Assembly: GCF_010093595.1 (NCBI RefSeq)
Contig: NW_022985448.1
Location: 1,282,593-1,346,592, forward strand
From: Mytilinidion resinicola
Taxonomy: Eukaryota; Ascomycota; Dothideomycetes; Mytilinidiales; Mytilinidiaceae
Direction: 5' to 3'
DNA length: 64,000 nt
Shown piece by piece: positions 26,506 to 43,823 of the stretch (the first letter of the stretch is position 1; each line of letters opens with the position of its first letter). The notes under the pieces were generated by a model, which was given only the letters and a program-made list of their open reading frames with translations, did not search any database and was not told where the DNA came from. The translations under genes were made by a program, and so were the position numbers.

Positions 26506-27512
26506 CTAATGGACTGTAGCCCGATGTTACTACAAAGGTTGGAAACTTTATAAAATGATGAAAGTCTATCCTGTCTACCTTTTATGAAATGTATCAAGAT
26601 ATTTCAAACAGTAGCAGTCAAGCGTATACAGACCCACAGCGAGGTCGTGGCAGTAAGACAGAGGGCCGGGCCTGAACATCCTACCCTTCAAAACACACAT
26701 TTTCCTCCTCTTTTTCTTTTGCATCGTGCAAAGACATCTGAAAGATTCAGTTCCAAGCTATCGTACTCCTCGACCGCCATTTCCGCCTCAGCGAATCTCA
26801 CCTTTCTCCCTATTGGACTCCTCTCTATATCAGGTTCTTATTTCGAACACAACCACAATCTTCTATCCGGCGCGGTGTAGTTGGCTTAGCATGCTCTCGG
26901 TTCTGAATCTGTCGATCCGTCCCGCCAGCGACCCAGGTTCGATCCCAGGCGTCGGACACATGACTGTTCATATTCTTTTTGGCCTCCCGGTCGCTATGAG
27001 GTTGATTTCAGATCCATATATGGAGTTCATGTACGAGAAGGAGAGCTGAGCAAGCCCCTACCTATTTCAGACTTGGAGAACATAGAGAAAACTTCACCTA
27101 GGACCTCAATGATAAAGTGCGAACATGTTTCTTTCTTGAGTCCTATAGCTACACGACACCACCTCCATCCCTTCCTGGAGTTGCGCAAAAAAGCCAGCTA
27201 TAAAAACAGTGCTCCGAATGGTATCATCACCCGCAAACTCCAGCCATCCAGCCTGTGCCCGTCTGTTCCTGAATGATCCACCCAAGCCAGCCCAACCGGA
27301 ACCCAACCCGATCTTATTTCCTGGCCAGACGCCAAACTACCCTAGCTCCGTCGTGCTGCTCACTACTGAAACAGGCACACAAAGCCGCTCGTCTCAAGCG
27401 GCGCTGCCCACGGTCACTAATGGCAAGACTCCGACCCGTGCAATTCGCTTATAACTGAAAGGAAAAGGTTGGATACATAGAACGACGGGGAGTCAAAATA
27501 CATCGGGAGAAT
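26506..27512. other. Non-coding region between repeat island and SNT2-like gene
   Basis: Apart from the tRNA-like sequence at 26866-26957, I see only short chance frames. The right part is the 3' flank of the minus-strand SNT2-like gene. Confidence 0.4.
26866..26957 (+). tRNA. tRNA-like sequence, Gln(CTG)-type, probably decayed
   Basis: The acceptor halves TCCGGCG (26866-26872) and CGTCGGA (26950-26956) pair 7 of 7, with one G-U. An A-box-like GGTGTAGTTGG and a perfect B box GGTTCGATCC follow in order, with a TTTTT terminator at 26976-26980. The anticodon loop reads TTCTGA, giving CTG. Problems: position 8 is C rather than T, the T stem has a central A-A mismatch, and the anticodon stem pairs only with a bulge (CTcGG with CCAG) if a ~17-nt intron is removed. 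This is either a divergent intron-containing gene or a pseudogene; I favour a pseudogene. Confidence 0.45.
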
Positions 27513-43675: not shown

Positions 43676-43806
43676 GCGGCTGTAGCTCAGCGGTAGAGCA
43701 GTAAGTCACCACCTCTACAACGGTGGAAAACACCAAACTAACAACTTCATAGTCTGACTGCAGCAGTGCTATCAGAGGGTACTGAGTTCGACTCTCAGCA
43801 GCCGCT
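43676..43806 (+). tRNA. tRNA-Cys(GCA) with two inserts: a 52-nt spliceosomal-type intron and a 7-nt anticodon-loop intron
   Basis: Acceptor GCGGCTG (43676-43682) pairs fully with CAGCCGC (43799-43805), discriminator T. T8 A9; D arm GCTC-AGCGGTA-GAGC (43685-43699), A26 at 43700. Then 52 nt (43701-43752) interrupt. The anticodon stem TCTGA (43753-43757) pairs with TCAGA (43772-43776). The loop is CTGCAG plus a 7-nt insert (43764-43770) plus A; anticodon GCA at 43760-43762. Variable loop GGGTA; T arm CTGAG-TTCGACT-CTCAG with a good B box. Two TTTTT runs follow at 43813-43823. Without both inserts the 72-nt product is a perfect cloverleaf (7, 4, 5 and 5 pairs). The 7-nt insert sits at 37/38, the canonical tRNA endonuclease site. 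The 52-nt insert does not. Confidence 0.92.
43701..43752 (+). other. 52-nt GT-AG insert inside tRNA-Cys, between positions 26 and 27
   Basis: Begins GTAAGT, contains ACTAAC at 43738-43743, and ends TTCATAG nine bases after the branch motif. These three signals, their spacing and the total length match the protein-coding introns of this window (for example GTTCGT...GCTAAC...TCAG at 13891-13943, 53 nt). A 5-bp hairpin, CCACC (43709-43713) with GGTGG (43722-43726), lies in its middle. Removal from G to G restores A26-T27 of the tRNA exactly. Confidence 0.85.
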
Positions 43807-43812
43807 AGATTC

Positions 43813-43823
43813 TTTTTCTTTTT
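43813..43823 (+). terminator. Pol III terminator of tRNA-Cys
   Basis: Two T5 runs separated by one C, starting 7 bases after the discriminator base. This supports the view that the gene is a Pol III unit. Confidence 0.85.

Follow-up and report, generated by a model that had tools for sequence, protein, structure and literature searches.

Spliceosomal-type introns in tRNA genes of the ascomycete Mytilinidion resinicola suggest a role of the spliceosome in tRNA production

The window analysed here, a stretch of 64,000 nucleotides from the genome of Mytilinidion resinicola (Ascomycota, Dothideomycetes, Mytilinidiales; 47.1-Mb assembly, 44 contigs), harbours on its forward strand a tRNA-Cys gene at positions 43676 to 43806. 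These ends, proposed in an initial annotation made from the letters of the sequence, are identical with those of a match to the Rfam tRNA model RF00005, which scores 38.7 bits (gathering score 29); ARAGORN in its default mode makes no tRNA call anywhere in the window. Exon 1 (43676 to 43700) comprises the 5' strand of the acceptor stem, positions 8 and 9, the D arm and A26, and it is followed, between tRNA positions 26 and 27, by a spliceosomal-type intron of 52 nt (43701 to 43752) which starts with GTAAGT and ends with ATAG. In a search over insert placements of 35 to 99 nt this placement, which is also that of the initial annotation, reaches the top score, equalled by the one shifted one base to the left. 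The ACTAAC reported for this insert is present as well; its core, the branch-site motif CTAAC, occupies positions 43738 to 43742, and the presumed branch A (43741) precedes the 3' splice site by 11 nt. Exon 2 (43753 to 43763) supplies the 5' strand of the anticodon stem and the sequence CTGCAG with the anticodon GCA, while exon 3 (43771 to 43806) supplies the 3' strand of the anticodon stem, the variable loop, the T arm, the 3' strand of the acceptor stem and T73. The A box TAGCTCAGCGG (43683 to 43693) conforms without mismatch to the consensus TRGYNNARNGG and lies clear of the insert. The B box AGTTCGACTCT (43785 to 43795) shows one mismatch to the consensus GRTTCRANYCY and is likewise not touched by any insert. 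Downstream of the gene, T runs (TTTTT C TTTTT, 43813 to 43823) fit a Pol III terminator.

The initial annotation had regarded the 52 nt as the sole interruption, whose removal yields the cloverleaf. Clearly, the 52 nt must go, but their removal is insufficient, as it leaves an anticodon loop of 14 nt. A further insert of 7 nt (CAGTGCT, 43764 to 43770), which had been overlooked, is located by the structure search at 37/38, the site of endonuclease introns. Freed of both inserts, the exons amount to 72 nt with the anticodon GCA and T73, and all 21 stem pairs are formed (acceptor 7/7, D 4/4, anticodon 5/5, T 5/5). The RNA of 79 nt from which only the 52 nt have been taken out is predicted to fold into a cloverleaf or nearly so, with the UGC of the 7-nt insert pairing with the anticodon GCA. 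Substrates of the endonuclease commonly show such pairing between the anticodon and a small intron. The complete precursor is predicted to adopt a fold other than the cloverleaf, and at minimum energy the 72-nt form deviates from the cloverleaf in the anticodon and T arms; among the other interrupted genes described below, Arg-ACG1 is predicted to adopt a cloverleaf or nearly so, and no cloverleaf results for Ser-GCT2 at minimum energy. For the 52-nt insert, the possibility of an endonuclease intron at 37/38 was considered and is ruled out by its site at 26/27, while the separate 7-nt insert fits this description. A group I or group II self-splicing intron was rejected in view of the length of 52 nt, the tRNA being the sole match in the window that attains an Rfam gathering score.

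Mapping of the annotated M. resinicola AlaRS protein, with identical exons, located the introns of this one coding gene within the window. In size and signals the tRNA inserts resemble two of its three introns, one of 65 nt (GTACGT..CTAAC..CAG, in full GTACGT..CACTAACGCACTCAG) and one of 62 nt (GTTCGT..CTAAC..TAG, in full GTTCGT..GCTAACGCCTCGTAG), whereas the third is 116 nt long and less typical; the likeness to coding-gene introns claimed beforehand is borne out by this gene. Judged from its sequence, the 52-nt insert of the Cys gene conforms to the U2 type in its ends, its branch motif and its size and signals, and this assignment would agree with the function proposed for it below.

The insert is not an isolated case, which the initial annotation, limited to one window, had missed. 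Rfam, DNA and motif searches of the genome yielded 15 tRNA genes with 18 inserts of spliceosomal type, 49 to 56 nt in length and distributed over about twelve positions. Eleven genes besides Cys-GCA carry a single one: Val-CAC (L135), as Cys, at 26/27, Ala-TGC (L025) at 10/11, Arg-CCG (L038) at 17/18, Ile-AAT (L058) and Gly-GCC (L060) at 28/29, Arg-ACG (L027), Ser-AGA (L033) and one Ser-GCT gene (L036) at 52/53, Arg-TCT (L037) at 53/54, a second Arg-ACG gene (L039) at 55/56, and a Leu gene (L102) at the end of the D loop. Two inserts each are found in the other Ser-GCT gene (L130; 30/31 and variable arm), in a Leu gene (L149/L156; D loop and 30/31) and in Leu-CAA2 (L083/L114, C1:97298-97516, minus strand), where they occupy the D loop and the anticodon itself, between its first and second bases, and where an additional insert is present at 37/38. 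Ordinary 37/38 introns occur in many of the interrupted and in many of the uninterrupted genes; that of Gly-GCC2 measures 10 nt, the tRNA without inserts being 71 nt long. Since 32 further tRNA genes do not contain a spliceosomal-type insert, the interrupted share is 15 of about 47, in a sample which is neither complete nor random.

Upon removal of the inserts, a blind fit converts all 15 genes into cloverleaves with T33 and the expected anticodon. Every counted pair and T8 are present in 14 of them, while Leu-TAA2 is without T8 and one pair of the acceptor stem; in Leu-TAA2 and Leu-CAA2 the anticodon stem has 5/5 pairs, wobbles included. Filled and empty paralogues can be compared directly for Ile-AAT (L058 and L015, which differ in one exon base) and for Gly-GCC (L060 and L019). 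Outside the 15 genes, a Leu paralogue (L160) possesses a D-loop insert of 50 nt homologous to that of L102, with donor, branch and acceptor kept; the gene itself looks decayed, since bases are missing ahead of the D arm and the T loop contains TTAGAAT.

The ends of the 18 inserts are GT-AG in 15 cases, GC-AG in one and GA-AG in two. A YTAAY motif whose branch A lies 9 to 14 nt from the insert end is present in all 18, a condition satisfied by 1.0% of random segments; together with a GT or GC start and an AG end it is found in 16 of the 18 inserts compared with 0.0068% of the random segments (400,000 segments of 49 to 56 nt from the window). The G+C content of the inserts is 41%, that of the joined exons 58% and that of the window 52%, and the interiors of the inserts show no marked similarity to each other. 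The two GA-AG cases are Ser-AGA (L033) and Ser-GCT1 (L036), in which the donor reads GAAAGTG in place of GT while AACTAAC and ATAG are kept. GA is a very poor splice donor, and a conserved GA-AG donor would be unusual in itself. In Ala-TGC the acceptor that yields the tRNA is GAG, 3 nt beyond a better TTAG.

As to the scope of these searches, Rfam scored 63 of 1387 tRNA candidates, and the DNA searches, which detect close copies only, missed Ser-GCT2 and returned no second place in the genome for the Cys gene. Three B-box motif searches gave 93 places, of which 14 were known, one lies in the window, 72 were examined in 71 pieces and six were left out; a genome-specific tRNA model (R1) was applied to 20 genome pieces. 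A genome search for the motif GGTTCGAGTCC found it no more commonly than its control (28 compared with 37 places), and a query of 12 Saccharomyces cerevisiae tRNAs produced no candidates, from which no conclusion can be drawn. ARAGORN with introns allowed reported nothing in L001, L025 and L027, which indicates that genes of this kind can escape searches in which introns are admitted in the anticodon loop alone.

Several other loci bear some resemblance to tRNA genes. L035 (C5:1656061-1656204, minus strand), L088, L098, L117, L118 and L126 are tRNA-like; the first of them scores 33 bits and has a long inner stretch as well as a poorly paired acceptor and other stems. L059 and L061 resemble fragments or decayed copies, L059 (C7:1109154-1109189, plus strand) being an inverted copy of the 5' half of a Thr-CGT tRNA, at a distance of about 550 bases from the whole gene, L012 (C7:1108518-1108600, minus strand). 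Within the window, positions 26866 to 26957 (plus strand) resemble a tRNA (TCCGGCGCGGTGTAGTTGG...GGTTCGATCCCAGGCGTCGGAC) in that an acceptor stem can pair, but the T stem contains a mismatch, the anticodon arm is not clear, and there is no Rfam tRNA call at the gathering score.

For seven isoacceptors interrupted copies alone were found: both copies of Ser-GCT, both of Arg-ACG and the single ones of Ser-AGA, Arg-TCT, Arg-CCG, Ala-TGC and Val-CAC. Since the inventory is incomplete (Met, Asp and Tyr are absent from it), diverged intact copies of these seven are possible. Ser-GCT is, by established decoding rules, the only reader of AGC and AGU, and the AlaRS gene alone uses these codons 20 times. 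The finding argues against an explanation according to which introns or intron-like DNA killed spare tRNA genes while other copies supply the tRNAs. This explanation, which we consider unlikely, draws on the uninterrupted paralogues that exist for Cys, Ile-AAT, Gly-GCC, Leu-AAG, Leu-TAA and Leu-CAA, on the decay seen in Leu-TAA2 and L160, and on Arg-ACG2, whose B box is broken by three mismatches.

Also at odds with the loss of function is the condition of the exons, whose stems are still paired and have changed on both sides. Ser-AGA and Ser-GCT1, which share the site 52/53 and the GA donor, differ in 6 of 17 stem pairs, all six changes being two-sided and none one-sided. The two Arg-ACG genes, with their inserts at different sites, differ in three pairs, again all two-sided. 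Within the Ser pair, donor, branch and acceptor are kept in introns whose interiors are no longer alike. If the shared Ser insert was inherited from a common ancestor, the stem changes came later, which would need an intron that can be removed. In addition, a run of four or more T starts within the first 16 nt downstream in all 15 interrupted genes and in 23 of 28 uninterrupted ones, compared with 4.7% of random places, and in the DNA of 14 of the 15 interrupted genes neither the A box nor the B box has more than one mismatch, which is true of 0.6% of random 140-mers (the A-box test by itself is weak, as 25% of random 140-mers pass it). In several genes it is a terminal G of the intron, the first or the last, that makes the box complete.

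A search of the genome for other copies of tRNA-Cys(GCA), a comparison already envisaged in the initial annotation, shows that an uninterrupted paralogue (L021) exists, and for this reason the interrupted Cys gene could be idle. A dead copy could thus be accommodated here, although exons, boxes and signals show no decay: in the pseudogene test the gene displayed 21/21 stem pairs, T8, T33, an A box with no and a B box with one mismatch, and a T run.

Less probable than dead copies are transposon-like introners that recently spread into tRNA genes, whether spliced or not. Introner-like elements are reported from Dothideomycetes, which counts for this possibility, as does the close relative that the insert of L102 possesses in the paralogous Leu gene L160. 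Yet all 11 inserts searched (10 of the 18 tRNA inserts, the Cys insert among them, and one from a U6 gene described below) were found at their own place only, the 52-nt Cys insert having no other copy in the genome. These results, along with the mutually dissimilar interiors of the 18 tRNA inserts, make a recent introner burst unlikely; for the 11 searched inserts an introner identity was rejected, there being no near-identical copies in the genome.

Just as improbable are endonuclease introns of the non-canonical kind found in archaea and Cyanidioschyzon, resembling GT-AG introns by chance: multi-intron tRNA genes are listed for a red alga (PMC4033280) and ordinary 37/38 introns abound in this genome, but bulge-helix-bulge pairing at the junctions averages 3.44 of 10 pairs in the 18 pooled inserts compared with 3.76 ± 0.29 after shuffling, by which test the mimicry was rejected, and this reading gives no reason why all 18 inserts should have an AG end and a branch motif. 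At the Cys junctions, 5 of 10 bulge-helix-bulge pairs are formed and none in the outer intron helix.

The initial annotation had left spliceosomal removal, a killed gene and an endonuclease mimic side by side. Among these, removal by the spliceosome is favoured by the genome-wide pattern, namely by 18 inserts in 15 genes, by the isoacceptors found only in interrupted form, by the two-sided stem changes and by the kept promoter boxes, and the mimic is disfavoured, as it comes without a bulge-helix-bulge signal. For individual genes there are real difficulties: two inserts have a GA donor, Ala-TGC has its TTAG/GAG acceptor, the B box is broken in Arg-ACG2, and Leu copies show decay.

Spliceosomal introns in Pol III genes have a precedent in the U6 snRNA genes of fungi such as Schizosaccharomyces and Rhodosporidium, where a short intron with GT-AG ends and a branch site is likewise present. 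In M. resinicola, too, one of 17 U6 loci (L070, G000:C1:2369760-2369910, minus strand), the sole U6 match of a length suited to such an insert, exhibits an insert of 51 nt with GT..CTAAC..AG. It lies between ACAGAGAAG and ATTAGCATGG (ACAGAGAAG/ATTAGC), in the ACAGAGA-AGC region. The tRNA inserts differ from the fungal U6 introns in affecting many tRNA genes, with up to two per gene and often a 37/38 intron in addition. U6 introns serve as the textbook example of reverse splicing, and reverse splicing into tRNA precursors would fit the present inserts. We also observed a B-box-like GGTTCGAG shortly 3' of the U6 terminator at L138 and L068/L069, two of the motif-search matches adjoining U6 copies; in yeast SNR6 the B box is likewise situated downstream of the terminator.

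The mechanism proposed here is that of an artificial yeast tRNA with a pre-mRNA intron which Koehrer, Vogel and Domdey in 1990 reportedly found to be spliced by the pre-mRNA route; in contrast to that construct, the genes of M. resinicola are natural, occupy many loci and include isoacceptors found only interrupted. Spliceosomal introns in a structural RNA of ascomycetes that is not made by Pol II are also familiar from the rRNA genes of lichen-forming species, although those are Pol I rRNA genes and not tRNA genes. The eukaryotic endonuclease introns at 37/38 have their counterparts in the 7-nt Cys insert and in nearly all other tRNA genes found, whereas the 52-nt insert is set apart by its site at 26/27, its splice signals and the lack of a bulge-helix-bulge signal. 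Multi-intron tRNA genes described with bulge-helix-bulge motifs and the endonuclease share with the present genes the presence of several introns per gene outside 37/38 and differ in that spliceosomal signals are found here. In the literature searched, to which subscription papers mostly do not belong, no spliceosomal intron was found to be reported from a nuclear tRNA gene in nature.

Taken together, the inserts in its tRNA genes suggest that the spliceosome of M. resinicola takes part in tRNA production. The 52-nt insert, found in a Pol III tRNA gene, is in our view probably a true spliceosomal intron of the U2 type, belonging to a set of at least 18 in 15 tRNA genes, and probably removed along the following pathway. 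Transcription of the Cys gene by Pol III would be driven by the internal A and B boxes and end at the T run. The spliceosome would then take out the GT-AG intron via the CTAAC branch site, most likely, as for the other introns of this kind, before the endonuclease acts on the tRNA precursor. The joined exons could fold into the cloverleaf, from which tRNA endonuclease and ligase would subsequently excise the 7-nt intron at 37/38. The product would be a normal tRNA-Cys(GCA), presumably charged and used in translation. The intron itself may have arrived by insertion or by reverse splicing.

With somewhat less assurance we propose that about a third of the identified tRNA genes (15 of about 47), both found copies of Ser-GCT and Arg-ACG included, would have to pass the spliceosome, often followed by the endonuclease acting on the same precursor. 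Translation would then depend directly on pre-mRNA splicing, and a single tRNA may require splicing machineries of two unrelated kinds and as many as three events, one of them, in Leu-CAA2, inside the anticodon. A 2026 review states that tRNA splicing does not rely on the spliceosome (PMC13149111), and the tRNAscan-SE 2.0 paper that eukaryotic tRNA genes are limited to one intron (PMC8450103); if the present reading is true, both rules, as worded there, fail in one ascomycete. Spliceosomes would then routinely act on Pol III precursors, with two splicing systems working on one transcript, and intron gain would become open to study at structure-defined sites, in very short genes and in filled and empty paralogues.
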